This document shows, one piece after another, positions 3,449-63,600 of a stretch of DNA of 64,000 nucleotides (its first letter is position 1; every line of letters starts with the position of its first letter). The translations under genes and the position numbers were made by a program. Below the pieces are notes generated by a model. It was given only the letters and a program-made list of their open reading frames with translations, searched no databases and was not told the origin of the DNA. This DNA comes from Henricia sp. BOLD:AAB3569 (Eukaryota; Echinodermata; Asteroidea; Spinulosida; Echinasteridae), in NCBI GenBank assembly GCA_037783545.1, contig JBBELK010000003.1:1364001-1428000 (forward strand), read 5' to 3'.

Positions 3449-3752
3449 TTAAAGCCCAATACATCATTTGCAGTTACCCAAGAAAAACCCGACTAAAAGT
3501 GTTGATAGCAATGGTAACAAACACCACAGGATTTTTGTTTGTACCTTTGTAGGAAAAATTGGCAACAATTTTTTTTAACATTCATTCAACACACACACAA
3601 AACCATGCATGGATTTTTCAGGTTTTCTGAAGTATTACTGCATCTATGTGGCTGAAATTTCTACAAGGCAGTTTATCAACATTATTCTTTAGTTATGTAA
3701 TGCCGTTGTTCCCGTTTTTAAAAGTTTTCCAATCATGTAATTAGTCTTTAAG
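3449..3752 (-). mobile_element. Family A MITE, copy 1
   Basis: Family A is a 300-370 bp element. In plus orientation it begins near ATGATTGGAAAACTTTTAAA and ends GCAAATGATGTATTGGGG then CTTTAAA. Internal landmarks are ACATAACTAAAGAATAATG, CAGAAAACCTGAAAAATCC, a short central palindrome, and TTGTTACCATTGCTATCAAC. The terminal TTTAAAG and imperfectly inverted ends suggest insertion at TTAA. This copy is in minus orientation with a degenerate centre. Confidence 0.8.
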
Positions 3753-3758
3753 TATGGT

Positions 3759-3908
3759 ATAGACCGTATCGAATAGCCGCCATTTCGTGGGGCAGTTTCT
3801 TTGCTCCTTGAGGACATGCATGGTTGCATATTATAGTGCTTCCATTGTTGAACGGTTTAAGTAACAAAAGGTGCCCCACGAAATGGCGGCTATTCGATAC
3901 GGTCTATT
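3759..3908. mobile_element. Family C MITE, copy 1 (GACCGTATCGAATAGCC ends)
   Basis: About 150 bp with near-perfect inverted ends TAGACCGTATCGAATAGCC followed by GCCATTTCGTGGGGCA. The arms pair over more than 35 bp, around an 80-bp middle. The flanking TA is compatible with Tc1/mariner-type insertion. Three copies in the window. Confidence 0.85.
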
Positions 3909-4430
3909 TACGGTTTATATAATCCTTGGATCGACCACATGAAACAGAACTTGTGGGATCACACCATAAACCGAAAAAAATATATTAGTTGCTTGGGACG
4001 AAAACTACAACTTACAAGCGAGCGTTTTTGAGCAAAATGCACTATGACCTTGAGGGCACTGTCTGCGTAGCTGTGATTGGTCATAAATGGTCACGTGGGT
4101 TCAGCTTGATTGACAGGTCGAAACTATGCATTGGGGCTAATAATGAATGTGCATTATAGGGACACTCTCTCAAGCTTATTCTGAAAATTAAAGACATGTT
4201 ACTAAGTAGACCGACCTCCTTTCCCATTAATTCCCCTGGTCCAAATGACAACGTAATCCCTACGAAGGTCATGACTTATTAACCCTATTCCCATATTCAG
4301 AATGGATTTTAAGCTTGTATACATGATTCGCCGTTGAATGGGAGGGACCGTTAAAAAATGATTGAAAACAGGTGAACGCTGTTACGACGATAAGTATTGA
4401 TCCAAAAATAAATTCGTAAAGAAAAAATAT

Positions 4431-5112
4431 TGATCGGAAAACCTTTAAAAACAGCACTTAATTAAAGAATAATGTTGATAAACCTGCCTTGTAGAAATTT
4501 CAGCCACATAAATATATTTATTTATTTATTTATTCACCACATCCAACAGCGGAAGGACCGCCAATTACAGGAATGGAATCAATTAACATAGATATTCGAA
4601 TAACTATCAACTTCTAAGTTGAATTAGAAACGGCCAGAGACACTGGGGAATCCCTCTTCACGAAAGAATGCTATGGGATCTTTGAAGTGCGTTACCGAAA
4701 CACTGGACCAACGGCTTTACATCCCTTCTGAAGGACGGAGCAAGTGTGATTAAGTGCCTTGCTCAAGAGCACAAGTTCAACAACCCGTCACGGTCCGGAA
4801 TCGAACCCACATTCTAGTACTGGCACAGGAACTTGAGTTCGACGCACCGCATGGCCATAACACCCCACTAAATGCAGTAATACTTCGGAAAACCTGAAAA
4901 ATCCATGCATGGTTTTTGTGTTGAATGAATGGTTAAACAATTGTCTGCAAACGTTTTTTAAAGCACCTTCAGTTGGCAATTTCTCTAGTACACGGAAAAA
5001 AAAAACCATGTGGTGTTTGTTACCGATGCTATCAACAGTTTTAGTCGGATTTTTCTTGTCAACTCGTGAAGTAAAGTTTGGGTAACTGCAAATAATGTAT
5101 TTGGGCTTTAAA
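4431..5112 (+). mobile_element. Family A MITE, copy 2, split by a SINE-like insertion
   Basis: The left part runs to TTTCAGCCACATA at about 4501. The right part resumes with TGCAGTAATACTTCGG at about 4868, the exact continuation seen in intact copies. About 365 bp of unrelated sequence sits between. The right end overlaps the TTTAAAG start of the next element. Confidence 0.8.
4502..4867 (-). repeat. SINE-like repeat inserted in family A copy 2
   Basis: Starts on the left with an ATTT microsatellite (4507-4533), as expected for the 3' tail of a minus-strand SINE. It contains GTGCCTTGCTCAAGAGCAC, the CCTTGCTCAAGGGCAC-type core seen again at 24.93 kb, and a B-box-like GGAATCGAACCC. The split of family A around it dates this insertion after that element. 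Confidence 0.6.
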
Positions 5113-5478
5113 GGCCATTGTATCATTTGCAACGACCCAATTTTGTTTTTCATGAGTTGACAAAAACCTTACTCAAAGTGTTGATAGCAATGGTAACAAA
5201 CACCACATGAATTTATTTTCGTCCAAAATGGTATTTCATGCTGGAAATTGACAACCGAAGGTGGTTTTCTAAAAAATTCCTGTGCACGGGACTTTGTTTT
5301 ACTATTCACTTGTACACAAAATCCATATTTTTTTCAAGGTTTTCTGAAGCACTGATGCATCTAAGTAGCTAAAATTTCTTCAGGCTAGTTTGCCAACATT
5401 CTTCCTTAGATATGTTACACTCTTATTCCACGAATCTGTAAAAGGTTTTATCTTGCAAATGATACATAGGGCCTGTAA
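5107..5478 (-). mobile_element. Family A' MITE (GGCCC variant), copy 1
   Basis: Shares the interior of family A (GTTGATAGCAATGGTAAC, TTTTCTGAAG) but has better inverted ends TTTAAAGGCCATTGTATCATTTGCAA... and ...TTGCAAATGATACATAGGGCC. It lies directly against the end of family A copy 2, sharing its TTTAAAG. Confidence 0.75.
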
Positions 5479-6336
5479 GCATCATCCAAAGCAAAACGAT
5501 CTGCAGAGGCAATTGCGACCAAATGTATTTGAAATTTCACGTGTCGCTGTCTCACTAACATGCACGTGATGTGTCAATATGAAGACTTATATATGACCTA
5601 GAAAAGAATTATATGAGTAGCCTGCATAAGACTGGTTTGGCCCCTACACTATATTGAGACAATGCCTACGCAGTAATTGTGTCGATCATCTAGCGGAACA
5701 TTAGACAATCTAGACAAAGACGAACAATCGAGTTTTATTGTCCGTGTCCGGTTGTTGTTCTAAAGCGTCTTGAAAGATTGCTGACTCCAAATCGATGCAG
5801 TTGATTCTAAAAGAGATCGCTCCTCGCTACGATTGGTCCAACGATAATACAAGATCCTATCGCTAACTTTATACCAATCAGAATTGGTGTTTTCCTATGG
5901 GAAATGGCCAATAAGCGACCAGTTTATCTGAAGGAGCTCTGACAGCCTAGTTTCGTGTCAATGACCCGTGACGTCATGTCGTGTCTACCTGCGCGCCAGC
6001 CATGACAACTTCAAGTTTCTAATGACAGACAAGTATAGAGAATTGGTCTTAGGAGCTCTCTAGGGGTAGAAATCACAGAATAGTTTGGCCCTGATATTCG
6101 GCACTTGCCTAAGGCGTCTTGGAATCTCACGTGGTTAAAATAGCTTCTGAGGAATGTTGGAGGTGGTGTATGGCTTGTTAGAGAGACCCAAATGTGTACA
6201 AACAGTTCTCCCAAAAAAGATAAATGTTTATAACAGCCTAGAGCTAGTTTGAACTTAATAAAAGGCGAAACAAAAATTTAAAGACAGATATTTCAGACAG
6301 ATAAGTCATTCTGATTTCCCTTTAACAACTTTACAA

Positions 6337-6480
6337 TATATCGAATAGCCGCCATTTCGTGGGGCAGTTTCTTTGTTCCTTGAGGACATGCATGGTTGCA
6401 CTTATTGTGCTTCCATTGTTGAACGGTTTAAGTAACAAAAGGTGCCCCACGAAATGGCGGCTATTCAATACGGTCTATAG
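6337..6480. mobile_element. Family C MITE, copy 2
   Basis: Arms ATCGAATAGCCGCCATTTCG and the inverted GGCGGCTATTCAATACGG enclose the same middle as copy 1. The outermost left bases are eroded. Confidence 0.8.
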
Positions 6481-6490
6481 GCGCTCCGAA

Positions 6491-6970
6491 ATCTTCATTT
6501 TCAACACAGAGGTGCAGTTTAAAAGTCCACACACTATACTCTTGTTGCTACGTGGTGCACGCCAATGTCTACCGACTAATAGTCTGGCTGCTATATGCCA
6601 TTCTCTCCCGCGATGCACTGAAAAACGGCCTGGGATATTTTAACCCACTGATAAGGTGAAAACTGCAACTACCCAAATGTTGGATCGTTTCTATACATGT
6701 GTATTTGTTGTAAAGAAACGCAAATTTGGTGAAAGCTACCCAAAATTGGGTTCATTTACACCAAATAAACGACCCAAAAAATTGGATAGTTGCAGTTTTC
6801 ATCCTATCCGTGGGTTAAAATACCCCTGGCGATTTTTCAATGTGAACACGGTACTGATTTTGTACCTCACACCTGCCGCGTGCACCCGATCACATTACGT
6901 AGCAACAAAAATTTAGTGTGGTCATCTGTATACTAAGTGTGCATGTGCAAGGGAGTACGTCAGTGCGTCA
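6491..6970 (+). repeat. Repeat G, copy 1, interrupted by a nested palindromic element
   Basis: Repeat G carries inverted blocks TTGCTACGTGGTGCACGC and GCGTGCACC...AGCAACA about 120 bp apart, plus GCCATTCTCTCC. Four copies are seen (also near 22.0, 31.1 and 60.2 kb). Here positions 6617-6842 are foreign. Confidence 0.7.
6617..6842. mobile_element. Nested palindromic MITE (TTTTAACCCAC ends)
   Basis: About 225 bp with long imperfect arms: CTGAAAAACGGCCTGGGATA, TTTTAACCCACTGATAAGG and AAAACTGCAACTACCCAA on the left are mirrored by TGGATAGTTGCAGTTTTC, CCTATCCGTGGGTTAAAATA and GCGATTTTTCA on the right. It sits inside repeat G. Confidence 0.75.
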
Positions 6971-7604
6971 GACATTATCCATGAGTAAAACGCAAAACAC
7001 GCAAATTAGAACATTAATGTTCTGTAACACAGAGACATAATTATTCATAAAATGGATAAGTGCAAAGTGAAAACGGCAGTTATTTTGTATTTCATTCGAA
7101 TTTATTCCCCAAATTAAAGAGCGCCCTCCTATGGCCGCCATACTTCACAAACCCTAATTAACAACCAGCACTAATTTGATATATCTGCGATCACAACCAA
7201 ACTGCTGCAACAGACATAACTCTTTGTACGGTTCTGCAGACGTACATATTTTGCCGGATGCCAGCTATTAATAATACAATGTAAAGTCGCGAGGGGACAG
7301 GTGGAAGGCACTTGTCACCATTTTACTGAAAGAGAAAAGAGTTCCGACTCGACTGCTCATCTGTGGATGCGCCGCATCCTGCTGTTGTCCCGAAAAACCT
7401 GAAAAGACTTACTGTTAATTTCCGACTTAGTGGCGTCCGACCCTAAGTGACATTAACCAGTCTCATAATATAAAGGTTGTCTTTTGCAGTGAAAGACAGG
7501 ATTATGGGGCAATTTGTTAAGATTCTGGTGTCATTGTTTGATGCTAATTCCTTTTTGTTCCATTGTGTGTAACCCGTATAATGCTTTTCATTTGCGGCGC
7601 CATC

Positions 7605-7922
7605 TTAAAACATGATTGGATGACTGGAAATCGTTTAAAAACAGGAGTAACAGCATTACATAACCAAAGAATAATGTTGATAAACTGCCTTGTAGAAATT
7701 TCAGCAACAGATGCAGTATACCTCAGAAAACCTGAGAATCCATGCATTTTTTGTGTGTTGAAGAAATGGTAAACGAATTGTCTCAAACAATTTTTAAAAA
7801 AACACCTTCAGTTGGCAATTTTTCCCACATTTTACACGAGTAAAAATGTGGTGTTTGTTACCAATGCTATCAACACTTTTAGTCGCGTTTTTGGGTAACT
7901 GCCAATGTATTGGGGTTTTAAA
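7605..7922 (+). mobile_element. Family A MITE, copy 3
   Basis: Full set of landmarks from AAACAGGAGTAACAGCATT to CTGCCAATGTATTGGGGTTT, with a short deletion in the right third. Confidence 0.75.
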
Positions 7923-11526: not shown

Positions 11527-11636
11527 CTAAAAGGGAACCAAAACAAAAAAGGAAAAGTTAAGCATTACTGAATGAAAACTGAGTTACTTTTTGCGGTTGT
11601 AAAACTGTACAGGGAAACCTGATGGATGGAGCATAC

Positions 11637-12095
11637 CACTGTGCCTCGTAGTTGGTAAAGCACCTGCCCGGTGGGTCAGAGGTCTTGTGGAAAACCTGGG
11701 AGTATACCACTGTGCCTCATATCTCAGCTGGTAGAGCATCTGTCCGGTGTGTCAAACGTCTTGGGGAAACCGGCGGGAGTATACCACTGTGCCTTATAGC
11801 TCAGCTGGTAGAGCATCTGCCCGGTGTGTCAGAGGTCTTGGGAAAACCTGGGAGTATACCACTGTGCCTCATAGCTCAGCTGGTAGAGCATCTGCCCGAT
11901 GTGTCAGAGGTCTCGGGGAAAACCTGAGGGAGTATACCACTGTTCTCATAGCTCAGCTGGTAAAGCATCTGCCCGATGTGTCAGAGATCTTTGGGGAAAC
12001 CTGAGGGAGTATACCACTGTGCCTTATAGCTCAGCTGGTAGAGCGTCTACCTGGTGAGTCGAGGGTCTCGGGTTCGAATCCCGATGAGATATGAA
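11637..12095 (+). repeat. Array of tRNA-like A-box modules, ending in a module with a B box
   Basis: Six head-to-tail units of about 76 bp, each GTGCCTCATAGCTCAGCTGG then TAGAGCATCTGCCCGGTGTG. The first five contain the A box (TAGCTCAGCTGGTAGAGC) but run into GGGGAAACCTGAGGGAGTAT where a T arm should be. Only the last unit has a B box, GGGTTCGAATCCC near 12070. This looks like a tRNA-headed SINE with a multimerised head. It begins only about 110 bp upstream, in minus-strand terms, of AP-2 exon 4. Confidence 0.8.
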
Positions 12096-13816: not shown

Positions 13817-14185
13817 TTAAAGCTAGGCCTACATCATTTGCAGTTACCCACAATTTTACTTCACGAGTTGACAAGAGAAACTCGACTGAAAGTGTTGATC
13901 GCAATGGTAACGAACCCACATGATATTTTTCCCGTGCAAAATGGTACCTCGTTGGAGAAATTGGCAACTGAAGGTGTTTATTTTAAGTTGTCTGCAGACA
14001 ACTTTTTTACCATTCGTTCATACACAAAACCATACATGGATTTTTAAGGTTTTCTAAAGTATTACTGCATCTATGTGGCTGAAATGTCTACAAGGCAGTT
14101 TATCAACATTATTCTTTACTTATGTAATGCTGATATTCCTGTTTTGAAAAGTTTTTCAATCATGTAATCTGTCTCAGTTTAAATA
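13817..14185 (-). mobile_element. Family A MITE, copy 4
   Basis: Minus-orientation copy, from TACATCATTTGCAGTTACCC to TTTTTCAATCATGTAATCTG. The centre has a perfect palindrome GTTGTCTGCAGACAAC at 13987-14002. Confidence 0.8.
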
Positions 14186-15622: not shown

Positions 15623-15637
15623 CTAAAAAGTCTCACA

Positions 15638-15965
15638 TTAAAGGAGCTTGTCCAGATTTTTCCAGAAAATGGATTTCGTTCTAACCTAACAATCATAAAA
15701 AATACCTCCCCAAAATACTATCCATAGGAAGATAACGGGAAATTTGCAATCTCCAATTTGGATGTTGAAGCAAAAAGGTTGGTGTAATCACTGCACTGCT
15801 TTATAGAATCAGATAGATTAGTGTGTTTTTTTACGATATCCTTGAAAATATACAAATCGAGAGCGCGAAATTTCAGAATGGTCATGAGAAAAATATGACA
15901 AATGTTATGGTATTAAAATCTCAACACCCATCGGAAAAATTGGGGGTCAAAAACGTGATCTTCAA
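15638..15965 (+). mobile_element. Family B MITE, copy 4
   Basis: Starts TTAAAGGAGCTTGTCCAGAT only about 15 bp from the foldback element. The right end is degenerate after CATCGGAAAAATTGGGGG. Confidence 0.8.
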
Positions 15966-17047: not shown

Positions 17048-17574
17048 AAAAAAAGCAATTTCCATCATTTGTAATTTCATAATATCATTATTACCTACCG
17101 TTTACTGGTAGTGAACAACGGGTCACCTAAAGTGTGATTAATTTCGAGTCGGAACGAAATTAAATTTTTGATGACAATAGCGTGATAAAAAATCAATGAC
17201 TCGATTGCTCAACTGAGGCGGTGCGATTTGGCTAACATCGTCTGAACAATGGACATGAACTGACGTCTTATTTGATTGCCCACTTTACCACCATCAAACG
17301 CTCTTATCCAAATCTCGTTATTTCGCAGACGATACAAAAGCTTGTGAAAAATGACACCTTCACGTCTAACGTCGTTAGGAATATTTACAAGCGAAAATTT
17401 CATTATCTCTTCCCCTCCCGGTTGCAGAGTTTTACAATGATATTGGCTGCCACTCATTTCTTGACAATTCGGGCTGTCTTTTTCAATCACTTTACATCGG
17501 CTTCAAAAGTTCACGAATGATGCGGTCGTCTGAAGGACGCACATAACGTTTTTGATGCAGATTTTAGAAACAAA

Positions 17575-17850
17575 CTACATGATTGGAAAACTTTTAAAAA
17601 CAGGAACAGTGACATTACATGCAGTAATACTTCAGAAAACCTGAAAAATCCGTGCATGGTTTTTATGTTGAATGAATGGTAAAAATGTTGTCTGCAGACA
17701 ACATTTAAAAAAAAACCACATCCAGTTGGCAATTTCTCCTACAAAAGGTACCATACTCGGGAAAAAAAAAATATATCAACACTTTTAGTCGGGTCTTTAA
17801 CTCGTGAAGTAAAATTTTGGGTAACTGCAAATGATGTATTGGGAGGTTAT
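17575..17850 (+). mobile_element. Family A MITE, copy 5, with internal deletions
   Basis: Starts ATGATTGGAAAACTTTTAAA. It jumps from the ACATTACAT block to GCAGTAATACTTCAG and carries a perfect 24-bp central palindrome at 17683-17706 (half-site AAATGTTGTCTG). Confidence 0.8.
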
Positions 17851-20684: not shown

Positions 20685-21165
20685 ATGATTGGAAAACTTT
20701 TATAGTATAGAGCCTTTGCACGGCGGCCATGACAGGGGGCAGTTACATTGTCACTGTGTGTCAAGCATGAGTAGGTGCTTTGTGGTTCCATTGTCACATC
20801 ATTTAAATAAGAAAACATGCCCCCTGTCATGGCCGCCGGTGCAGAAGCTCTATATATAGGAACAGGAACAACAGCATTACATAACTAAAGAATAATGTTG
20901 ATAAACTGCCTTGTAGAAATCTCAGCCACATAGATGCAGTAATACTTCAGAAAACCTGAAAAATCCATGCATTTTTGTTATTAAAAAACAAAACATCTTT
21001 ACTGCTTTAGTTGGCAATTTCTCCCACAAAGGTACCATTTTACACGGGACAAAAATCATGTGGTGTTTGTTATACCATTGCTATCAACACTTTTAGTCGG
21101 TTTTTTTTGTCAACTCGTGAAGTAAAATTTTAGGTAACTGCAAATAATGTATTGGGGCTGTAAAG
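20685..21165 (+). mobile_element. Family A MITE, copy 6, split by a nested MITE
   Basis: Begins ATGATTGGAAAACTTTTATA, is interrupted at about 20707-20853, and resumes AGGAACAGGAACAACAGCAT. It abuts the A' element at 21162. Confidence 0.8.
20708..20852. mobile_element. MITE (TAGAGC...GGCGGCCATGACAGGG ends) nested in family A
   Basis: About 145 bp, arms TAGAGCCTTTGCACGGCGGC and CATGACAGGGGGCA mirrored by GCCCCCTGTCATGGCCGCC and GCAGAAGCTCTA. It resembles family C in layout but not in sequence. TA at both ends suggests Tc1/mariner-type insertion. Confidence 0.8.
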
Positions 21166-21508
21166 GCCCTATGTATCATTCGCAAGATACAACTTTTTGC
21201 AGATTCGTGGAATAAGAGTGTAACATATCTAAGGAAGAATGTTGGTAAACTAGCCTCAAGAAATTTTAGCTACATAGATGCATCAGTGCCTCAGAAAACC
21301 TTGAAAATGGATTTTGTGTACAAGTGAATGGTAATTTTCTTTAGAAACCCACCTTCGGTTTCCAATTTCCAACATGAAATACCATTTTTGATGGAAATAA
21401 ATTCATGTGGTGTTTGTTACCATTGCTATCAACACTTTGAGTAAGCTTTTTCTTGTCAACTCATGAAAAACAAAATTGGGTCATTGTAAATGATACAATG
21501 GGCCTTTA
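21162..21508 (+). mobile_element. Family A' MITE, copy 2
   Basis: Inverted ends TAAAGGCCCTATGTATCATT and AATGATACAATGGGCCTTTA enclose an A-type interior. Here it lies in the same orientation as the neighbouring A element; copy 1 is in the opposite one. Confidence 0.8.
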
Positions 21509-31266: not shown

Positions 31267-31991
31267 GGATAATTGCACGACACACCAATTCGGATAATTT
31301 TCATACGAAATCATATGTGACAGCGCCTACAGAGGCCTAAGAAGAACTAAAATAAACCACATTCATCAAAGTGTCGCGGTGTTCTAAATTTCAAGCTTGC
31401 GTATCGTGGAGGTTTTTGACCGCTGAAAAATTCATCGTAGACGCGCATGTTCCTTGATGCTCGTCCGGCGAATGGACACGGCAGTCAACCGCTCTCCAAT
31501 CATTCAAGACAGCTCCCAAGTCGACAATTAGGAGCATCATCTTTGATCAGACCAAGCGTCTGTCTATATCGCGTCCATACCCACACGGCTGATCAAGGCA
31601 CACACAGCATACACACGCCACGCGGTGCATATAACCATCATCTCACGCACGGCGCACCTCAATATTCTTGCATTTTCATTTGTAGTATAAACAGCGTAAT
31701 CCTTACAGATGAAACCGGGGCGCTTGAGAATTGAAACCAGAGATGCGACCAATTTCTGGACAGTTGAACAATCAACTGTTTCAGCTTGTATTCTCCCTGA
31801 CAATCGCGCAAAAGGTCCTGAACTTTACACATCTCTGTATCAAAAAGCGATTTTCAATATAAAACTCGGTTGATTCAGACTTAATCCATATCAGTATAAC
31901 TGTTATACCTTTTGCTAATATTTGTTAATAGGTTAAGAAAAAGGTAGTTTATTTTTTTATTTTTTGAATTTTTTCGGAAAGTCTAACCTTG

Positions 31992-32333
31992 TTAAAGGAG
32001 CGTGTTTATATTTTTGCAGCAAATGGATTTCGTTCTAACCTAACAATCATATAAAATACTCCCCTAAAATACAATCCATGGGAAGAAAGCATGCAGGAAA
32101 TTTGCAATCTCCAATTTGGATGTGGAAGCAAAAAGGTTGGTGTACTCACTGCACTGCACTTTATGGAACCGGATAAATTAGTTTACAAAACATCAGTGGT
32201 TTTTCGACGATATCCTTAAAAATATACGGATTGAGAGCGCGAAATTTCAGAATGGTAATGAGAAAAATATGAGAAATGATATGGTATCAAAATATCGAGA
32301 GTTAAAACATGTGATCTAGTCACGCTCCTTTAA
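31992..32333 (+). mobile_element. Family B MITE, complete copy
   Basis: TTAAAGGAGCGTGTTTATAT to CTAGTCACGCTCCTTTAA with exact TTAA on each side and family interior. Confidence 0.9.
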
Positions 32334-35582: not shown

Positions 35583-36283
35583 TAAAGGTATAGAGTACAT
35601 CATTTGCAGTGACCCCAATTTGTTTTTTATGAGTTGACAAGAAAAACCTTACTAAAAGGGTCATTCCACGAGGTTGGGTACAAAAAGTGTGACATACCAG
35701 ATTTTAAATATGAGTAACATTCCAGCCCAGCTACTTTAGTAAGTATATTCATTTCATAAAGAAACACATGTTACACTACAATAGAAGTATTTACATCACA
35801 ATGTAACAAAACTACAGACCTCCAAAATGTACTCGTAGTGTTAAACATATGTGGTGTCCATGTTGCGTAGGTATAAGACAAATATTTCATGATCTGTGAG
35901 AGATTGGTCAGTGAAAACAACATGATTATATTTGGACACCTAGCCATATTCAGTACAACAAATATTTCACCAGATAAATAATTATCCAGTCTTTAAATAA
36001 AAGAACTTGTACCGACGCAACATGGACACCGCTTTTTTGTTTATATACCCAACCTCATGGAATGACCGAAAAGAGCATATAACAATGGTATACCAAACAC
36101 CACATGAATTTATTTCTGTCCAAAATGGTATTTTGTGTGAGAAATTAACAACTGAAGGTAGTTTTCTTTATTTAAAAAACCACCAAAAAAACCCTAAAAA
36201 AACCAGTCTTTTGCAAAAGACTTTTTACCATTCAACTCAACACAAAGGACCTTTGTAAACAGTTTACCAATCATGTACCTTAA
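35583..36283 (-). mobile_element. Family A/A' MITE split by a nested element
   Basis: Left part to ACCTTACTAAAAG (about 35657), right part from AAAAGAGCATATAACAATGG onward with CACCACATGAATTTATTTC and a GGACCTTTGTAAACAG end. Confidence 0.75.
35659..36067. mobile_element. MITE (GGTCATTCCACGAGGTTGGG ends) nested in family A'
   Basis: About 409 bp with ends GGTCATTCCACGAGGTTGGG and CCCAACCTCATGGAATGACC, almost perfectly inverted. AAAAG flanks both sides and is a candidate 5-bp target duplication. Confidence 0.85.
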
Positions 36284-38617: not shown

Positions 38618-38976
38618 TTTAAAGGTAGAGTATATATGATTAGTAAACTGTTAAAAACGGCGTTATTTTCACTCGTAATTGAAAGCCCATTATGTCGAGA
38701 AAACACCTTGTTGAAATTTCAGCCACATATAGTAATATTTCAGAAAGCCTGGAAATCCAAGCATGGTTTTTGTGCATGAATGAATGGTAAAACAAGATCG
38801 CCTACAGGCGATCTTTGGAGATTCAAATAGTTTTGTCATTTTTCTCATGAATGGGGGCACTTCAGACGAAATAATTTCACAGGATGATTACTACCAATAC
38901 CGTCTTAATAACAAGTAAGCTTAAAGATAATAATTCAGTCATTTCTTTGGAGTGTATTTACCAAACTGGACCTTTA
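38618..38976 (+). mobile_element. Family F MITE, copy 1
   Basis: Ends TTTAAAGGTAGAGTATATAT and ATTTACCAAACTGGACCTTTAAA. It shares GAAATTTCAGCCACATA and the GTTTTTGTGCATGAATG block with family A, but not the right half. The central palindrome has arms AGATCGCCT and AGGCGATCT (38795-38814). Confidence 0.8.
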
Positions 38977-39766
38977 AACTGGCATTAAATAATATATTTA
39001 ACTAACACTTGGAATATTTGCCAATCTATTGAAGCTAACAAAAATCTGAAGTTCCCGTTTGATCCCAAACAGATGTTGCCATCCAAACCACGCCACCACG
39101 TATCACAACATTTATAGGCCTACACCCCACCAAAAAGATTTGCTTTCCGAATAAAAAATAAATCCACGTTTCCCTTCAGTTGTTTCCGAATCAAATTTAA
39201 ACACTCAAATGTGATCAATTATCGACAATAACTTAAACACGTGTCCGGAAGTTTGAGGAAATATTGAGTCGGAAGTCGTGTCCCTAGACATCTTGATAAT
39301 TTCCAGCACGCTTTGTCAACTGTAGACAGATAGATGTCTCACTCGTCTCCCGACGTTTACCAATTCGATGATGATATAGTCATGGTCTATAATTTTACTA
39401 CAGCAAGATTTTCATACTCAAGAACAATTGCACCAGAACTAAAGATACATGTATTTTTAAAATCGTGCATTTTTGGGTGTTTCAACTAGAATTTTGTTGT
39501 TTCAAATGACTTAAAATAACCATTATCTCTGTAGATTTTAAACAAGTATACACCATACCTTATTTGAGAAGTGCCAATGTTATAAAGTACTATTCAGCAG
39601 GGTCATTAATTGCTTCAGTTAAGATATCAAAGTTACAAATCAGCAAAATTGGTGTTACGCACGAGACATTCTTAATTCGGTTGACGCGAAAAGCTTTATG
39701 CACGGGACACAAAATGTAGGCCTACATTTCTACAACAACAATTCCAGGATGAAATTCTGGTCTTTT

Positions 39767-42796: not shown

Positions 42797-43168
42797 TTTA
42801 AAAACAGATTACATGATTAGAAAACGTTTAAAAACAGAAACAACAGCATTACAGAACTAAAGAATAATGTTGATAAACTGCCTTGTAGAAATGTTAGCCA
42901 CATAGATGCAGTAATTATACTTCAGAAAACCTGAAAAATCCATGCATGTTTTGGTGTTGAATGAATTGTAAAACAAATGTTTGCAGACAATTTTAAACGA
43001 AAAAGCACCTTCAGTTGGAAATTTCTCCCACAAAGGTACCATTTTACACGGGAAAAATCATGTGGTGTTTGTTACCATGGCTATCAACATTTTAAGTCGG
43101 ATTTTTCTTGTCAACTCGTGAAGTAAAATTTGGGGTAACTGCAAATTATGTATTGGGGCTATAAAATC
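42797..43168 (+). mobile_element. Family A MITE
   Basis: Begins GTTTAAAAACAGATTACATG and ends TTATGTATTGGGGCTATAAA. The centre AAATGTTTGCAGACAATTT mixes two palindrome types. Confidence 0.85.
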
Positions 43169-43857
43169 TAAAAAATTATGCCAAAGGTGTTGTTTTGGTG
43201 AATCTACCTAAGGGAAGAAAGTGATCAGTTCTGTTGTTTCAAAAGATAAAATACCGATTGGGCGTAGACAATACAATAATGATGACTCCTTCCTTGGGTC
43301 AAAACAGATTCGCCTCGCTGGCTCGAAAAAAGATGATACTAATTCCAAGAGTGCAAGGCTGTAATGAGACCAATATGCCCTGAACAGACACACCATCAAT
43401 TGTACAAACTCTGTCCTGACATAATGATGTCATAGAGGAAGGGGCGATGGAGGTAGTGTTCTCCCCAGGGGAGGGGGGCAACGGGGGTAATTCCCCTCTG
43501 GTTGGTCTATATACGACCCGGCCCTGTCATGTAGGGGAAGTGGACATCCGTCAATGGGGGTCGAGTTGACATGATTTATTGTCACAATAGTCTAGACATG
43601 TGCACAGCAATAATTACAGACACTGTCATTTTGGCTTATTTTGATTCAGTTTTTGCCTACTCATGTGTCGCTTTAGATCTGAGAAGAAAACGTCGATATA
43701 AGTCGACGACCTTGTCAAAAATCTCTTTTTTCTTTCAAATTCCATGACAATTATTGTAGATTCTAAGCACGCAGACTCTGTGCCAAATCATGATAGGACG
43801 TTTTCCAAACCAACAAATTAAGCACGTTGAAACTACAGTAAGCCACACATTCTTATA

Positions 43858-44210
43858 GGAAAGGAGCTTATTCAGATTTGTGTAAAAAATGAATTTCGTT
43901 CTAACCTAACAATCACGTAAAATACATCCCCAACTATCCATGGAAAACAAAACCAGGAAATTTGCAATCTCCAATTTGGATGTGGAAGCAAAAAGGTTGG
44001 TGTAATCACTGCACTGCTTTATGGAACCAGATAAATTAGTTTACTAAACATCGATTGTTTTTTTACGATATCCTTGAAAATGTACGGATTGAGAGCGAGA
44101 AATTTCAGAATGGTAATGAGAAAAATATGACACATGATATGGTATCAAAATCTCAACACCCATGGGAAAAATGGGGGTCCCAAATGTGATTTGAGCGCGC
44201 TCCTTTAAAA
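43858..44210 (+). mobile_element. Family B MITE
   Basis: GAAAGGAGCTTATTCAGATT to TTGAGCGCGCTCCTTTAAAA; the interior is intact. Confidence 0.85.
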
Positions 44211-44423: not shown

Positions 44424-44778
44424 TTTAAAGGCAAATTATAAGATTGGAAAACGTTTAAAAACAGGAGCAGCATATTTACATAGGCCTACATAAAGAATGC
44501 TGTTGATAAATGCCTTGTAGAAATTTCAGCCATATAGATGCAGTAATACTTCCAAAAACCTGAAAATCCATGCAAGGTTTTTGTATTGAATGAATGGTAA
44601 ATAATGTCTGCAGACATTTTTTAAAAATACCTTCAGTTGGCAATCTCTCCCACAAATGTACCATTTTAAACGGGGAAAAATCATGTGGTGTTTGTTACCA
44701 TTGCTATCAACACTTTTAGTCGGGTTTTTCTTGTCAAGTATTTGGGTAACTGCAAATGATGTATTGGGCTTTTAAATT
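44424..44778 (+). mobile_element. Family A MITE with good terminal inverted repeats
   Basis: Starts TTTTAAAGGCAAATTATAAG and ends GCAAATGATGTATTGGGCTT then TTAAA. Perfect centre AATGTCTGCAGACATT at 44603-44618. Confidence 0.85.
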
Positions 44779-45372
44779 CACGAAAAGTAAATTGACTATA
44801 CTTTTTTAACATAGATGATTGTAGACAAGAGCTTGTTATAAAATTGGTAGTTTTGCACCACATCATGCTGCGCGCCTCGGGGTACCAACCAACAATGGCA
44901 TTGGCGAGGCGACAGTGGCAAATGATTTGTTCGCTGGTACCTTGACGGGATGTAAACCAATATGGCGTCTTGTGGCGGGGTCAGAGGTCAACCTTGACAA
45001 TTTCTTATCATAAACGAAATTAAAATGTAATCTAGAATTTCAGTGGGCCGAGAATTCCCTTTTTATATCAGCATGTAAGAAATTATTGAAGGTTGCCCGT
45101 TGTTTGGAGTTGATTTTCGCAGCGATTGCGAGGTTCCATCCGAGTCTGGTTTCTGTTATGTTAACACCCCACCGCTATGGCCATATTTCTCGCAGCGGGC
45201 ATAGGGAGCTAATTGTGGCACTAATTGTAACCAAAATAAGCCTGCAACCTCATTTTTTTCTAAGTTATATCTGGGGAACCTTGTAAGATAATATGAAGCA
45301 ATAAATACTGAGCGTTTCGAGGTTCTTAAATTTTAGTTTAGCCGTCTTTCTTCCATGGTTTAAGAATTTTAA

Positions 45373-45709
45373 ATAAGCTTATTCAGATTTTTCCAGAAAA
45401 TGGATTTCTAACCTAACAATCATATAAAATACCTCCCCAGAATACTATCCATGGGAAGAAAACAGAAAATGTGCAATCTCCAATTTGGATGTGGAAGCAA
45501 AAAGGTTGGTGTAATCACTGCATTGCTTTATGGAACGGATTAATTAGTTTACAAAACATCGGTGGTTTTTAGACAATATCCTTGGAAATATACCGATTAA
45601 GAGCGCAAAATGTCAGAATGGTAATGAGAAAAATATGACAAATGATACGGTATCAAAATCTCAACACCCATGGAAAAAATGGGGTTAATCTGGGGTTGCT
45701 CCTTTAAAG
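45373..45709 (+). mobile_element. Family B MITE
   Basis: AAATAAGCTTATTCAGATTT to GGGTTGCTCCTTTAA; the right terminus is shortened. Confidence 0.8.
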
Positions 45710-49035: not shown

Positions 49036-49562
49036 TTTAAAGATAGTATACATGATTGGTAGACTGTTACAAATAGTTTTATCCCCAGTGTGATTGAAGG
49101 TATGCATGATTAAAACCAACCTGAGCAAAAACCAGCTCGTACTTCGTCTAACTTTTGAGAAAACAGTCAAAAAAAAGTTTGCAGTCATTTCGCCACAAAA
49201 CCACTTCGCCCTGAACCATTTCGCCCTGAACCATGGCCTGTGCACGAAGTGGTTTTGGGGCGAAGTGAAATTTGGGTGATGTAGTCTTTGGACGAAGTAG
49301 TTTGGGGCGATATGGCACTCGGGCGAAGTGGTTTGGGGCGAAATGGCACTTGGGCGAAATGGTTTTGGGGCGAATTGAATTTTCGTTTCATGAGACGAAA
49401 ACTAATTGTTTTACACATTTCGCAAAGACTATAGCATTTCAGACAAAACCATTTCAGGGGACGTTTTCTACGGTCATCATGTTTATATTGTGTAAGTTAT
49501 AGGCGTAAATCTGTGAACATTTCTGATTTTTGAGATTCCCAATGATGTATACTGCCTTTAAA
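49036..49562. mobile_element. TTTAAAG-ended element enclosing a minisatellite
   Basis: Ends TTTAAAGATAGTATACATGATTGG and CCAATGATGTATACTGCC followed by TTTAAA are inverted. The inside is unlike family A and is dominated by the tandem repeat at 49190-49390. Confidence 0.7.
49190..49390 (+). repeat. Minisatellite of CGAAGTGGTTTTGGGG / CGAAATGGCACTTGGG units
   Basis: About ten degenerate 15-20 bp units. The first few (CCACTTCGCCCTGAACCATTT) run in the opposite sense to the rest, so the array is inverted around about 49238. Confidence 0.85.
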
Positions 49563-49698: not shown

Positions 49699-50293
49699 TT
49701 AAAGGAACTTGTCCAGATTTTCCAGAAAATGAATTTCGTTCTAACCTAATAATCATACAATCCTCCTCAAAATACTATCCATGAGGGGGAAAAGGGAAAT
49801 TTTTGTTAAATTTTATTTCGTCTTATTAGCAATGGTAACAAACACCATGAACATTTCTCTTGTAAAATGGCGGGAAAAATTGCCAACTGAATGTGCTTTT
49901 AAAATGTTTGCAAACGATTTGTTTTACCATTTATTCAACACAAATCATGCATGTGTTTTTAAGGTTTTCTGAAGTATTACTGCATCTACAGTTGAAGTCG
50001 GAAGTATAAATACATGTACACCACTACCATCATCACCCAAAATGGTAAACAGGACTACCCAAACCATTGCAAGGTGTACAAGCTATGTTTTTAAGTACTG
50101 CATGCACGTGAGGAATTCCACAAATCAAGAATTTAGTAAAGAATGGTGTAAGCACACCAGTTTTAACACTTGGTTGCATACAGTTGTATTTATACTTCTG
50201 ACTTCAACTGTATGTGGCTGAAATTTCTACAATGCAGTTTATCAACATTATTTTTCAGCTATGTAATGCTGTTGTTCCTGAAATTCGTAAAAT
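49699..50293. mobile_element. Chimera of family B start and family A body, with nested Tc1-like MITE
   Basis: TTAAAGGAACTTGTCCAGAT to ATCCATGAGGGGGAAAAGGG is family B. From about 49800 the sequence is family A in minus orientation (TTAGCAATGGTAACAAACACC...). The family A part is further split at 49989-50210. Confidence 0.8.
49989..50210. mobile_element. Tc1-like MITE, copy 2, with exact TA target duplication
   Basis: Ends CAGTTGAAGTCGGAAGTATA and TATACTTCTGACTTCAACTG, flanked by TA at 49987-49988 and 50211-50212. Intact family A copies read GCATCTATGTGG across this site, so the empty target is visible elsewhere in the window. Confidence 0.92.
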
Positions 50294-51111: not shown

Positions 51112-51480
51112 TTAAAGGTAGTCTACTTGTTTGGTAATTACCCTCAAAATAAATTTCTGAATTATTATCTTTAAGCTTACTTGTTATTAAGATGGTAATG
51201 GTAGTAATCATCCTGTGAAATTATTTCGTCTGAATTGCCCCCATTCATGAGCAAATTATAAAATTATTTGAATCTCCAAAGATCGCCTGTATAGGCGATC
51301 TTTGGAGCAATTCATTCATGCACAAAAACCGTACTTGGATTTTTCAGGTTTTCTGAAGTATTACTGCATCTATGTGGCTAACATTTCTACAAGGTAGTTT
51401 TCTAGACCTATGCTTTCATTTACCAGTAGAAATCACGCCGTTTTTAACAGTCTACTAAACAAGTATAATACCTTTAAATT
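51112..51480 (-). mobile_element. Family F MITE, copy 2
   Basis: Inverted ends TTAAAGGTAGTCTACTTGTT and AACAAGTATAATACCTTTAA. The centre is a 34-bp hairpin at 51274-51307 with perfect 15-bp arms (CTCCAAAGATCGCCT) and spacer GTAT. Confidence 0.85.
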
Positions 51481-53535: not shown

Positions 53536-53790
53536 ATTCCATCAGGAACAACAGCATTACATAACTAAAGAATGATGTTGATAAACTGCCTTGTAGAAAT
53601 TTCAGACACATAGATACGCAATAAAAAAAAATCCATGCATGGTTTTTGTGTTGAATGAAAGGTCAAAAATCGTTTGCAAACGAAATTATAAAAACACCTT
53701 CAGTTGGCAATTTCTCCCACAAAGGTGCCATTTTACACGGAAAAAGAATCCTGTGGTGTTTGTTACCATTGCTATCAACACTTTTAGTCG
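53536..53790 (+). mobile_element. Family A MITE, outer ends missing
   Basis: CAGGAACAACAGCATTACAT to AACACTTTTAGTCG. The centre is TCGTTTGCAAACGA (53670-53683), a perfect palindrome of the second type. Confidence 0.8.
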
Positions 53791-55314
53791 CAGAAAACGA
53801 TGCTTTAAATGATTATAATCGATGAAGTGAAACTTAATGATCTGCTTAAACCGCCAAGAAATGTTGCAGCAGATATTTTTGGCGAAGTTTTATGTGAAAT
53901 CTGCTACTCTTCACGGATGAAACGTTTCCGAAATCTGGCCTACTTCGTAGTGAAAAAAAAGGAAGCGAGTTTGTTTAGACTCTTACGCTTAGCACGGCTT
54001 TATAGAAAATGTGATAAAGCAACTGTGACGTAATCAGTTCAAGACAATGGCTTGCTACAGAGCTGACTGATGAGTCTGTGCATCGAGCAAAATCCTTGAT
54101 CTGTCCACGGCACGAGAGGTCTCGTGCAATCGCGCGAGATTATTTACGATCTCGTTGACAGATTCCTGACCATTTACTTGATTTACAGACCTGTTCGTCG
54201 CGGACCATTGCAACAGTTTTTCCTTTCACGTGTGGTTGAAGGATATACAACACAAACGTTGGGCGGTATTCCGTAATATATTCTTTCACTGTAAACGAAT
54301 TTGACTTCGGAGGCGACACCCGAACAGAGAGAGAGGTTGCCTTTGTTGGCGAACTATTTTGAGGTCATTTTGCTTGTGTCAGGAAATTGTTGTCTTTGGA
54401 AACCACGTTTATGAGAAGGTATGAACCTATCGTGCATTGATATAGGGCTATAGTTAGATTCAGAAAATCATAAATCGGGCACAAACGCTTAAGTGGTCAA
54501 CGTTTTGGCCAAGAGTTCTACCCAGACTCTAGTTCAACATACGGGAAGGTTTTAAAATGGTCACCACTTGTATATGGCAATTCCAAAAATTAGGGGTCCA
54601 AAACGTTTGGTGTCCCAGTTATGTACGTCACCTTGTGCATCAAAAATCGCCACTTATGATCACAAATTCTCAGTGGCCTGTGATTATAGGGGACAGCATC
54701 ATATTCTTTAATATTCTGTTCTCCGATTACTGACAAAATATTCGAAACAAAAGACCATAATGGCTCATAATTTGTTCCATGATATTGACTAGGAATTTGG
54801 TGTCCCGGGTTACATACGCCAATGGAAAATGGCTGTAGAACGAGTTCGCAATAACCTGGGTGCCGTATCCACACACAAACATTAAATTTAAGTGGCATTT
54901 GTGGAAATAAAAATAAATATTTTCTGCTGGGAAACCACTTTCAATCACTAAAAATACTTGAAAATCTTTAAAAGCATGTCACATTTTTGGATCCCTAATT
55001 TTGAGAATTACCCCTATAGGCTTACTGTTGGCGTCCTAATGCAACGTACAACCGTGTGTCCATTTAGCATATTTCTAAACTTTGACAGGCATTCTGCACC
55101 TGACTATATTATGATATCGAAATTTGTTATGTGCATTTGAAAAAGAAAACGCGCTACTTCAGAATTTCTGACTATACTCTTGTCTGGAGACGAAAGTTTC
55201 TAATGATGGCTTTCCTGACCCGGTCGTTCATTGACCTCCTCGGAAAATTGATGTCATTAATCATTATTGAGGTCATGCGTGAGGCTGTCGCATTAAAAAT
55301 AAATGTTATTCGAA

Positions 55315-55669
55315 TACGGAGCGTGATCAGATTTTTCTAGAAAATGGATATTGTTTTAACAAAAGAATCATATATAAAATGCCTCCGCAAAATACTATCC
55401 ATGGGAAGAAAACAGGACATATGTAATCTCCAATTTGGATGTGGAAGCAAAAAGGTTGGTGTAATTACTGCACTGCTTTATGGTACCAGATAAATTAGTT
55501 TTACAAAACATGTGGTTTTTTGACGATATCCTTGACAATTTACGGATTGGGAAAGCGGGATTTCAGAATGGTAATGAGAAACTTGACAAATGGTATGATA
55601 TCAAAATCTCAACACCCATGGAAAAAAATGGGGGCCTCAAAAATGTGATCTGGACACGCTCCTTTAAAC
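55315..55669 (+). mobile_element. Family B MITE
   Basis: GGAGCGTGATCAGATTTTTC to GATCTGGACACGCTCCTTTAA; good terminal inverted repeats. Confidence 0.85.
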
Positions 55670-58976: not shown

Positions 58977-58985
58977 CTGTGCCAT
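58977..58985 (-). CDS. TFAP2: Candidate first coding exon of AP-2 (Met-Ala-Gln)
   Basis: On the minus strand the sequence TTTTGAATGGCACAG|GTGAGA gives an ATG, two further codons and a strong donor in phase 0, which joins in frame to exon 2 (MAQ|ERSD). A stop codon (TGA) lies immediately upstream of the ATG, so translation from here would start at this Met. AP-2 genes are known to use several very short alternative first exons (MLWKL..., MLVH...SAM), so a three-codon start exon is plausible. I see no homologue of MLWKLTDNIKYEDCE between exon 2 and the right edge; a canonical first exon could lie beyond 64000. The call rests on signal quality and phase only. Confidence 0.45.
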
Positions 58986-59780: not shown

Positions 59781-60207
59781 TAATTATGCGCGCGCGCGGT
59801 CATGTGACGACGGGCGTGCTAGCCAGTCAGGTGACGGCTCATGCAGCGTGTCGTGAATATTCATAAGGTGGGAGGAGCCTGTGATGTTGCCGTTATGTAT
59901 CTCGCGGCGTTTCGCTCAAACGGTGAATGCCTTGTTCTTGAAGGGACACGAAACCGGTGAAATAAGCATTTTCAAAATATAAAACCATTTACCCCGTAAT
60001 AACTTTCAGAAACAGAAAAATTTGACCAAATATCCTAACAATTTCGACAGTTTCTTCGCAAGTGATTGACACTGATTTCCAATTCTTGACCTTATTGCGG
60101 TTACGTTATTTACCAAACGAATTATAATAGTTTCATGGCTTAAAACGTTAACTCGTAAATTAGCCTTTATCGCGTAACATTAGCATAATGGCGGGTACCC
60201 TGAATCC

Positions 60208-60450
60208 TTCATTTTCAAATAGAGGTACAGTTTAGAAAGTCACATACTATGCTGTTGTTGCTACGTGGTGCAAGCCATTGTCTGGCAACCAACAGTCTGG
60301 TTGCTTTATGCCATTCTCTCCTACGGGGAACACGGTATTGATTCTGTACTTCACACCTGCCGCGTGCACCACATAGCAACAATAAATTAGTCTGGTCAAG
60401 TGGATACTACGTGTGCATGTGAAATGAAGTACGTCTGTACACCAGACGTT
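60208..60450 (+). repeat. Repeat G, copy 4
   Basis: CTTCATTTTCAAATAGAGG, TTGCTACGTGGTGCAAGCC, GCCATTCTCTCCTACGG, GCCGCGTGCACCACATAGC in order. Confidence 0.7.
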
Positions 60451-60919
60451 TCTCAAAAGGTTATGTACACATTATGTGAGAACATAGAACTATAACTACA
60501 TGTGACAGACAAGCGAATTCCCAAATTCGCACTGAGAAAATGACTGTTAATTAAGTTATCATCTGGCCTTGTTCGTGTTTGATTCCCAACAAGTCCGACA
60601 TCCGATCCGAAGGAACAACACTCCGACGTCTGGTTCCAATTTGCGGACGGTAATGAGGGGATGGTTTTTACTTTAAGTTCCCCGCAGACTGGGATAGAAT
60701 TAACTATTAGATAACACCGTGATTAACTCGACCTGGCGGGCAGACACGGGGCTAATGAAGGGTGAAAGATCTAAGAATTCCCGGGTAGGATCTCATGGAA
60801 TCACGGTATGCCAAAACTCTCCGTGTAACGGAGAACGTCCAGTGGTCTAAATTCCTTTCTTATCTCGCCTCTTTTATATAAACCACAATTCGACACAGAC
60901 CATGTGCGCAATATATAAT

Positions 60920-61500
60920 CAAACTTGGGATGAGTGATACATCGTAAAGGCCTTATCGGGATTCGAATCCGAGACCTCTGACTCACCGGGCAGATGCTTT
61001 ACCCGTGAGGTACGAGGTCAGTGATATACTCCCTCATGTTTTACCCAAGACATCTGACACACCGGGCAGTTGCTCTACCAGCTGAGCTATGAGGCACAGT
61101 GGTATACTCCCTCAGGTTTCCCCCAAGACCTCTGACACACAGGCAGATGTTCTACCAGCTGAGCTATGAAGCACAGTGGTATACTCCCTCGGGTTTTCCC
61201 CAAGACCTCTGACGCACCCGGCAGATGCTCTACCAGCTAAGCTATGAGGCACAGTGGTACACTCCCTCAGGTTTCCCCCAAGACACACCGGGCAGATGCT
61301 CTACCAGCTGAGCTATGAGGCACAGTGGTATACTCCCTCAGATTTTCCCCAAGACCTCTGACGCACCCGGCAGATGTTCTACCAGCTGAGCTATGAGGCT
61401 TAGTTATATACTCCCTCATGTTTCCCCAAGACCTCTGACACACTGGGCAGATGCTCTACCAGCTGAGCAAAGTGGTATACTCCCTCAGGTTTCCCTCAGA
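60920..61500 (-). repeat. Array of tRNA-like A-box modules, minus orientation
   Basis: About seven units of about 76 bp, each with reverse A box (CTACCAGCTGAGCTATGAGG) and CACAGTGGTATACTCCCTC. Only the leftmost unit, last in reading direction, has a B box (GGGATTCGAATCCGAG near 60960), followed by the tail ATCAAACTTGGGATGAGTGA. Same architecture as the array at 11.6-12.1 kb. Confidence 0.8.
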
Positions 61501-61788
61501 ACCCAGTTTTTTTCTCTCGAATAACATCACACAATGGCCGATTGTTCTCTTCTGAATTAGCCATGGAATTCTCATCATTTTTTCCCTGAAATTTACGACT
61601 TCTAAATCTCTTTAGAATATGTTCTTTGTCTACTATGGTATACGAAACAACATGTTTAGTGTGTGCATGCATGTAAATCATGGAATGCACTGTTATATTT
61701 TGTGGAACTTGCGACATTTCTGTCAAATTACAAAAATGCTTTGATATCGTATGATGACGTCATCATTTGTACAAGTTGTGTACTGATA

Positions 61789-62150
61789 CATTAAGATCAC
61801 ATTTTTGATCCTCCCATTTTTCCCATGGGTGTTGACATTTTGATACCATATCATGTGTCATATTTTTCTCATTACCATTCTGAAATTTCGCGCTCTCAAT
61901 CCGTAAATTTGTAAGGATATCATCAACAAATCACTGATGTTTTGTAAACTAATTTATCCGGTTCCATAAAGCAGTGCAGTAATTACACCAACCTTCTTGC
62001 TTTCACATCCAAATTGGAGATTGCAAATTTCCTGCATGCTTTCTTTCCATGGATTGTATTTTATATATTTTAGGGATGTATTTTACACGATATCATTGTT
62101 AGTTTAGAACGAAATCCATTTTTCTGGAAAAATCTCAACAAGCTCCCTTT
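61789..62150 (-). mobile_element. Family B MITE
   Basis: GATCACATTTTTGATCCTCC to AATCTCAACAAGCTCCCTTTA. A short insertion lies near TTTTATATATTTTAGGGATG. Confidence 0.8.
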
Positions 62151-62479
62151 ATCACTGCACGACTGGCTCCACCATACATATACTCACACCAGACTGCATG
62201 TCAATCATAAAATCGTAAATAATCGCCGAGTCAAATGTTTTAAACACTGGACCCAAACATTTGGCCAAATTGTTCCCAAACGTCCAACTAAATGCCCTGT
62301 TAGAAGGTAATAAATTTGTCACCAGAAGATTAAAAGTGGTCGATTCGTTATTCCGTTAGTAGGCGGAGCTTCTAAACTGAAGGGCCAATCACATACGAGG
62401 CTTGACAAACCTAATTTATAACTCGTTTAGCAAAAGTGATTTAAAGACAAACACGAGATTGTTGTGGTGCTCCGACGGG

Positions 62480-62553
62480 ATGCCCAGATAGCTCAGTTGG
62501 TATAGCAATTGGCCATGTATGCCAAGGACCTGGGTTCGAATCACAGTCGGGGC
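62480..62553 (+). pseudogene. tRNA-like unit, well preserved but odd anticodon loop
   Basis: 74 nt. Acceptor TGCCCAG/CGGGGCA pairs at six of seven positions, A box TAGCTCAGTTGG, anticodon stem TTGGC/GCCAA perfect, T arm CTGGGTTCGAATCACAG. The loop CATGTAT would place TGT (Thr) as anticodon, but base 33 is A instead of the invariant U. Inverted AAACACGAGA (62449-62458) and TCTCGTGTTT (62563-62572) flank it. Confidence 0.5.
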
Positions 62554-62589
62554 ACTGCAATTTTCTCGTGTTTCTAAACTCATCTTTCG

Positions 62590-62940
62590 CTTACATGATT
62601 GGAAAACTTTTAATAACAGGAACAACAGCATTACATAACTAAAGAATAATGTTGATAAACTGCCTTGTAGAAATGTCAGCTACATAGATGCAGTAATACT
62701 TCAGAAAACCTGAAAAATCCATGCATGGTTTTTGTGTTGAATTAATGGTTAAAAAATTGTCTGCAGACAATTCTTTCAAAGCATCTTCAGTTGACAATTT
62801 CTCCCACGAAGGTACCATTTTACACGGGAAAAATCATGTGATGTTTGTTACCATTGCTATCAACACTTTTAGTCGGGGTTTTCTTGTCAACTCGTGAAGT
62901 AAAATTTTGGGTAACTGCAAATGTTGTATGGGGCTTATAT
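62590..62940 (+). mobile_element. Family A MITE, near-consensus copy
   Basis: All landmarks from ATGATTGGAAAACTTTTAAT to GCAAATGTTGTATGGGGCTT. Perfect centre AATTGTCTGCAGACAATT at 62755-62772. Confidence 0.9.
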
Positions 62941-63281
62941 CACAAAGGGGGCCGATTAAATACTATACGGCAAAATCAACAAAGGTCTGTCGAAGGAGGA
63001 TCACTCATTAGACTGTAAGAAGGCATTAAGTGGTATATATTGATTGCAACTTATAGGTCTTTGTCTGCGAATAGTCACAACCTGATAGAGTTTTGGCTCA
63101 GCAGGGGGTCAAAATCCCTCGGCATTTTGACGACTGATAAACCCATGGCCTATCCATGGCATAATGCTGCACGGATTATGGTTTTTAAAGAAGTTAATGA
63201 CTGAAGTGGCATATAGATTAAGTGTTACAATGATTGTCCGTTTTGAAAAAAGAACGTGCGCTCATGAAATCTTCGGATGAG

Positions 63282-63600
63282 CTTAAGTCCCAGTACATCA
63301 TTTGGAGTTACCCAAAATTTTACTTCACAAGTTGACAAGAAAAACCCGACTAAAAGTGTTGATAGCAATGGTAACAAACATCACATGATTTTCCCCGTTT
63401 AAAATGGTACCTTTATGCATGGGAGAAATTGCCAAGTGAAGGTTCGTAAACAAATTGTCTGCAGACGATTTTTTTTAGCATTCATTCAAAACAAAAACCA
63501 TGCATGGATTTTTCAGATTTTCTGAAGTATTACTGCATGTGTCTGAAATTTCTACAAGGCAGTTTATCAACATTATTCTTTAGTTATCTAATGCTTTTTT
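63282..63600 (-). mobile_element. Family A MITE
   Basis: CCCAGTACATCATTTGGAGT to ATTCTTTAGTTATCTAATGC; the centre AATTGTCTGCAGACGATT has one arm changed. Confidence 0.85.

Follow-up and report, generated by a model that had tools for sequence, protein, structure and literature searches.

Short, non-autonomous transposable elements with TTAA targets are known from Xenopus as Kolobok/T2 miniature inverted-repeat transposable elements (MITEs), for which the published description gives AGGRR as the T2 terminal motif and AG as the end of full-length Kolobok copies (PMC6004289). The word "hairpin" is absent from the main text of that paper, and no "palindrome" was counted for it either. Mobile hairpins with compensatory changes have a bacterial precedent in REPINs, whose dependence on the RAYT transposase has been proposed (PMC3116915), and perfect hairpins, together with compensatory changes, can be both created and maintained by template switching (PMC8794818). 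Searches of open-licence papers for palindromes in MITEs brought up no title or abstract opening with such a pattern. Here we analyzed a stretch of 64,000 nucleotides from the sea star Henricia sp. BOLD:AAB3569 (assembly GCA_037783545.1, contig JBBELK010000003.1, positions 1,364,001 to 1,428,000; hereafter the window, with positions counted from its first nucleotide), and sampled copies of its repeats across the genome (740.7 Mb, 2104 contigs). The window carries families A, A', F, G and H, which are MITE-like, non-autonomous elements with TTAA targets and a central palindrome, each present in hundreds to thousands of copies. We suggest, with a probability close to one half (0.48), that the self-complementarity of the centre is kept in the copies that amplify, perhaps as a hairpin or cruciform acting in cis, while resident copies drift.

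Judged from their sequence, these elements appear to resemble the Kolobok/T2 MITEs (PMC6004289): they are short and non-autonomous, they are flanked by TTAA wherever ends were read, and the ends of A, F and H consist of TTAA followed by AG. The agreement is incomplete, as the ends found here (AGAC and AGCC in A, AGGT in F, AGAT and AGGC in H) do not always conform to AGGRR, nor are the terminal repeats perfect. The majority sequence of family A has TTTAAAGACAGATTACATGATTGG at the left end and GCAAATGATGTATTGGGGCTTTAA at the right end, so that the element reads TTTAAAG...CTTTAA, with imperfect terminal inverted repeats. Both ends were found for 22 copies; counted by eye, the left end is an exact TTAAAG in 10 of these and the right end carries TTAA in 16, the rest differing or being decayed. 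No transposase was detected by Pfam in six of the 46 open frames of at least 90 amino acids in the window, and no genome-wide transposase search was made. PiggyBac MITEs also use TTAA targets, and their ends begin with CCY; those described here begin with AG. The difference from REPINs lies in the mobile unit, which in bacteria is the short hairpin of two inverted REP sequences itself (PMC3116915), whereas here the hairpin is an internal stretch of 20-34 base pairs (bp) within TTAA-ended units of about 350 bp (A and F; 350 and 348 bp in two window copies of A) or 527 bp (H). With the hairpins attributed to template switching in RNA genes (PMC8794818) our elements share perfect stems and multi-base compensatory changes; there, however, the process was inferred from the histories of genes, and here four of five sets of copies are without an excess of paired changes.

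The original prediction, made for this same stretch, held that family A elements keep a central palindrome while its sequence changes. All the centres that it named are present: GTTGTCTGCAGACAAC at 13987, a perfect 24-bp palindrome at 17683, AATGTCTGCAGACATT at 44603, AATTGTCTGCAGACAATT at 62755, TCGTTTGCAAACGA at 53670, and the CGCCT/AGGCG type at 38795 and 51274. The copies with one changed arm, at 49902, 63453, 42975 and 4939, are likewise as it described. The attribution of changing centres to family A was right as far as that family goes, and incomplete, since different palindromes occupy the centres of A', G, F and H. The palindromes are beyond chance. We scanned 320,637 bases (the window plus fetched loci) for inverted repeats with exact arms of at least 11 bases, at least two G or C per arm, and loops of 0, 2 or 4 bases; this yielded 23 distinct sequences, 20 of which are, by eye, centres of these elements, although the scan gives no density estimate because most of the loci had been chosen for holding such elements. 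For six centres, the predicted energies of the DNA hairpin range from -7.7 to -17.2 kcal/mol (z from -3.9 to -10.6), which suggests that the centre would fold as a hairpin or cruciform. The centres of A, A' and G follow a single plan, namely an A-run, a stem of variable pairs, the tip TGCA, the complement of the stem and a T-run. They read AAAATTGTC-TGCA-GACAATTTT in A class I, AAAATCGTT-TGCA-AACGATTTT in A class II, AAAGTCCCG-TGCA-CGGGACTTT in A' and AAAGTCTTT-TGCA-AAAGACTTT in G. Family F has a longer stem with the tip TACA (AAGATCGCC-TACA-GGCGATCTT), extending in most of the listed F copies to CTCC/GGAG, and family H has the tip CATG (TTTTCGTCT-CATG-AGACGAAAA).

Between the types compared, the stems differ in complementary pairs. 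We placed six centre types on one alignment, with the rows chosen by hand: A class I, A class II, the A subtype with an outer G-C pair, A', G and F. All 54 of the 54 cells are paired; six of the nine pairs change on both sides, giving 13 such cells, and the remaining three are invariant. The covariation score is 0.741, as opposed to a mean of 0.289 (standard deviation 0.067) in shuffles, none of 500 reaching the observed value, and to 0.067-0.286 for slid control structures. The stems of A, A' and G can be aligned gap-free, and every difference among them is a paired substitution; those of A and F differ at three of nine pairs, and the two classes of A are four paired changes apart. We also counted bases column by column in copies of A', F and G fitted to a typed model string, and the commonest bases facing each other are complementary at each stem pair, with the exception of the F tip, in which A stands opposite C.

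By comparison, decay within A', F, G and A class II affects single arms, much as expected if the two arms change independently. For F, A' and G we took the first 100 of 107, 497 and 223 matches, respectively, in contig order, counting presumed alleles separately, and dropped the copies unfit for the typed model of the centre (32 of 100 in A', 49 of 100 in F and 13 of 100 in G). Exact anchors favour well-preserved copies, and fits that decide whether a centre is accepted lose the most-changed ones; some paired events could thereby be hidden. Pairs altered on both sides and complementary were compared with the expectation from the make-up of the columns. Such double changes number 5 against 5.8 expected in A' (68 of the 100 listed copies, with full centre), 1 against 3.2 in F (51 of 100), 4 against 6.5 in G (87 of 100) and 8 against 7.5 in the 40 copies of A class II. 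Pooled, this makes 18 against about 23 expected, with 552 changed arm positions, so that correction of resident copies is rare in these four sets. Given that the arms change independently here, and given the decay of CpG sites described below, the "intermediates" of the original prediction are mostly ordinary one-arm decay, partly CpG transitions.

Family A was sampled with anchored patterns that gave 59, 96 and 100 centres (255, of which about 60 enter no count). We parsed 191 copies with flanks, which became 178 and then 173 after joining presumed alleles by flank similarity; 16 without a recognisable dyad were dropped, leaving 157. Near-identical copies occur on contigs such as C3 and C141, which look like two haplotypes of one region. 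Complementarity exceeds independence at pair 3 (134 of 157 copies versus 85.3 expected), pair 6 (94 versus 73.4) and pair 8 (124 versus 113.5), and the other six pairs show no excess among these copies. Pair 3 splits the family into class I (C-G, n = 94) and class II (T-A, n = 40), with 23 others. Class II is older on average, with a median divergence of 0.142 versus 0.101 in class I. The flank majorities of the two classes have few and weak differing columns inside the element: at p < 0.01, 15 of 190 columns differ in the left flank (1.9 expected) and 3 of 170 in the right (1.7 expected), none of them strongly diagnostic. A tree built from the flanks requires 28 changes of the class label, as opposed to a mean of 34.6 in shuffles (standard deviation 1.9, lowest of 200 shuffles 27). 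This is weak clustering, and the two classes are not clean, separate clades, although the tree resolves little, because the flank majorities are nearly equal. If each class of centre descended from an independent founder, it should form one clade, with no excess of paired changes inside it; the outcome is mixed, in that the A classes are not clean clades, and an excess is lacking within A', F, G and A class II and present within A class I.

We read these patterns as selection on source copies. Mainly copies with a self-complementary, or nearly self-complementary, centre would proceed to amplify, and the source lineage would be selected for dyad symmetry and not for a given sequence. The simplest cause would be a cis role of the centre, folded into a hairpin or cruciform, either when the element is mobilised or in its transcript; resident copies would escape this selection. 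The main rival is template-switch (quasi-palindrome) correction, by which one arm is copied from the other in replication or in transposition-linked repair, so that mismatches in source lineages are repaired while the hairpin has no function. Its mechanism is already published (PMC8794818). Single copies resembling one-step paired events exist here (the A copies GTCCGCAGGCGGAC and TGGTTTGAAAACCA, and an H copy in which the tip CATG became CGCG), and both the separation of the A classes by four paired centre changes amid few weak flank differences and the excess of double changes in A class I fit it. Yet the lack of an excess of double changes in the four pooled sets would restrict it largely to source lineages or else entirely to transposition, and we regard it as rather unlikely. 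Selection on source copies is preferred, by a modest margin, because correction is traceless in four of the five sets. The possibility that palindromes were inherited whole with the right half, each family coming from its own palindromic founder with no paired substitution, finds its best case in F, whose A-like left half (92-93% identity over 84 bp between the left flanks of one A and one F copy) meets another right half at the palindrome, and in H, which has another palindrome in a different context. It is nevertheless improbable: in single copies of A, A' and G, the left halves align at 75-88% and the right halves at 80-87% identity, with ungapped stems that differ by paired substitutions only, and the flank majorities of A class I and class II are almost equal. 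A process-free founder effect fails, since these stems in homologous contexts differ by paired changes alone. Least probable of all is that CpG decay together with bookkeeping accounts for the pattern, a founder CpG in each arm decaying to TG or CA and complementary combinations arising by chance. Two copies whose outer flanks match, and which are presumed alleles (C3:2036205 and C141:3231674), read TCATC...GATGA and TCGTC...GATGA, so that a single CpG transition in one arm separates a perfect from an imperfect centre, and the left and right CpG states of class II combine as independence predicts (CG/CG 7 versus 6.4, TG/CG 5 versus 6.0, CG/CA 3 versus 3.8, TG/CA 3 versus 3.5). Some of the apparent pairing is CpG decay; as a full explanation it is refuted by pair 3, whose C-G and T-A states are not CpG, and likewise by several pairs differing among A, A', G and F.

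Several observations weigh against selection on source copies. The covariation test has limits of its own: the six types were hand-picked, a structure derived from the sequence tends to outscore slid versions regardless, and the further pair types number 8, the same as the shuffled mean (331 of 500 shuffles were as high). In the youngest quarter of A copies all eight inner pairs are intact in only 11 of 40. Inside A class I there are 26 complementary double changes against 11.7 expected (94 copies), and the CA/TG combination of dinucleotides is also in excess (5 versus 1.1 expected), both of which a correction process would give likewise. The excess of double changes falls mostly at pairs 5, 6 and 8, where the sub-types TCATC/GATGA and GTTGTC/GACAAC segregate, and may reflect sub-founders; correction may also have acted there, because tests of flank kinship gave no clear sign of sub-founders, either for the subtype with an outer G-C pair (6 copies, no closer kinship, p 0.68) or for the 17 copies whose right arm has TG (no clear closer kinship, p 0.05). 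Finally, mismatched centres recur: C opposite T at one pair in 17 of 87 G copies, A opposite C in 18 of 51 F copies, TTGTC/GACAT in 8 of 157 A copies, and, by eye, part of the left arm deleted in 7 of the 100 listed H copies. Should these imperfect centres have been amplified in that state, perfect pairing would not be a strict requirement. The G mismatch may be a recurrent mutation or an amplifying sub-founder, as no flank difference was seen between mismatched and paired G copies (11 and 9 copies; no subfamily markers, permutation p 0.74). Of the two processes offered by the original prediction for paired change, hairpin selection or template-guided correction, the pairing itself is borne out between types and at pairs 3, 6 and 8 of family A. 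Correction in resident copies is unsupported for the sets A', F, G and A class II and would fit the excess in A class I, and hairpin selection survives only as selection on copies that later amplify.

The centres show other features as resident sequence. In G, one C of GTCTTTT/AAAAGAC is altered in 19 of 87 copies and its mirror G in 24, most often to A and to T, respectively; the two arms change independently, and the site is possibly a strand-symmetric mutation hot spot. In the genome-wide list of F, about 12 copies have, by eye, 8-10 bases in place of TACA, many of these tips alternating purine and pyrimidine (TGTATACA, TGCATGCA, TACGTACA), and four copies share one common deletion between the two GATC repeats. 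We rejected the centre of family A as a deletion hot spot, deletions of at least 6 bases occurring at 0.0027 per bp per copy versus 0.0038 in the flanks; set against the family A rates and not against their own flanks, such losses are more frequent in the spacers of A' (0.0080) and F (0.0073) and less frequent in that of G (0.0020). Clear hypermutability of the centre in resident copies was also rejected (0.132 per site in class I, a value affected by the motif filter, versus a mean flank divergence of 0.111), and flip-flop inversion of the palindrome is disfavoured, since mirror-image mismatches do not occur equally often in F and in A.

The element of family A at 44425..44775 (+ strand) has both ends, with the axis of its palindrome (44603-44618) 186 bp from the left end and 164 bp from the right. 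The class I element at 62588..62936 (+) has its palindrome at 62755-62772, 172 bp from the right end to the axis, and another class I element, of the subtype with an outer G-C pair, matches over 13830..14167 (-), with its palindrome at 13987-14002. The partly deleted copy at 17564..17843 (+) holds the perfect palindrome at 17683-17706, and a class II copy matches over 53543..53790 (+; palindrome 53670-53683). The one-arm changes at 63453 and 42975 belong to a matched stretch at 63284..63601 (-) and a copy at 42797..43160 (+), the mixed centre at 4939 to a matched stretch at 4869..5108 (+) whose left part is replaced, and the decayed arm at 49902 to a class II-like fragment at 49827..49988 (-). 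Family F is represented by the element at 38618..38977 (+), with its A-like left half and other right half, whose palindrome starts at 38796 (axis 38805, 187 and 172 bp from the left and right ends), and by a centre without assigned strand at 51274..51307, a 34-bp perfect inverted repeat with a stem of 15 pairs. An A' element lies at 5106..5429 (-), with a decayed centre at 5278-5292 and the axis 179 bp from the right end, and a second A' copy, matching over 21209..21492 (+), has lost its palindrome. Family G occupies 35596..36250 (-), its left end not delimited, with the palindrome AGTCTTTTGCAAAAGACT at about 36205-36222 and an insertion of about 417 bp at 35661-36079, in the right half. The H element at 49036..49562 (+) has 24-nucleotide terminal inverted repeats, 88% complementary, and a palindrome at 49380-49401. 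With its axis 171 bp from the right end, the distance from axis to right end in five window copies is 164 and 172 bp in A, 172 in F, 171 in H and 179 in A'; the right halves of F and A align over 14 bases only, yet the distance is similar.

Family H is numerous and looks young: exact anchored matches number 2067 across the genome, and among the first 100 centres about 54 are, by eye, identical; its interior contains repeated GGGCGAAATGG-like stretches. Elements of A and A' adjoin twice (4869-5429 and 20861-21492), with gaps of about 15 and 50 bp between matched stretches, one pair tail to tail and the other head to tail. The window also holds a second interspersed repeat family of eight or nine copies, many with a stretch like TTTTTCCAGAAAATGGATTTCGTTCTAACCTAACAATCAT (2569-2911, 15631-15952, 31985-32326, 43851-44184, 45362-45692 and 55306-55642 among them), and tandem arrays of units of about 77 bp at 11613-12092 and 60987-61427. 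The first array is tRNA-like, with a tRNA-Thr called at 12019-12093, and looks like a short interspersed element derived from a tRNA or an array of tRNA genes; an Rfam search returned four tRNA matches only.

Descriptions of MITE families usually dwell on the ends and treat the middle as filler. We consider it possible, although on balance doubtful, that these families reveal a sequence-free, structure-based cis element in eukaryotic MITEs, a hairpin or cruciform some 170 bp inside the right end that would have to be self-complementary, whatever its sequence, for the element to be mobilised, so that amplifying lineages would covary like an RNA stem while residents drift. A middle that covaries between amplifying lineages, and mostly not among residents, would be a clean case of selection on transposing copies only, and would point to a fold of DNA or RNA as a signal of transposition in eukaryotes. 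Their copy numbers also make these families a test bed for the genomic rate at which template switching repairs hairpins, a rate that looks low in four of the five sets.

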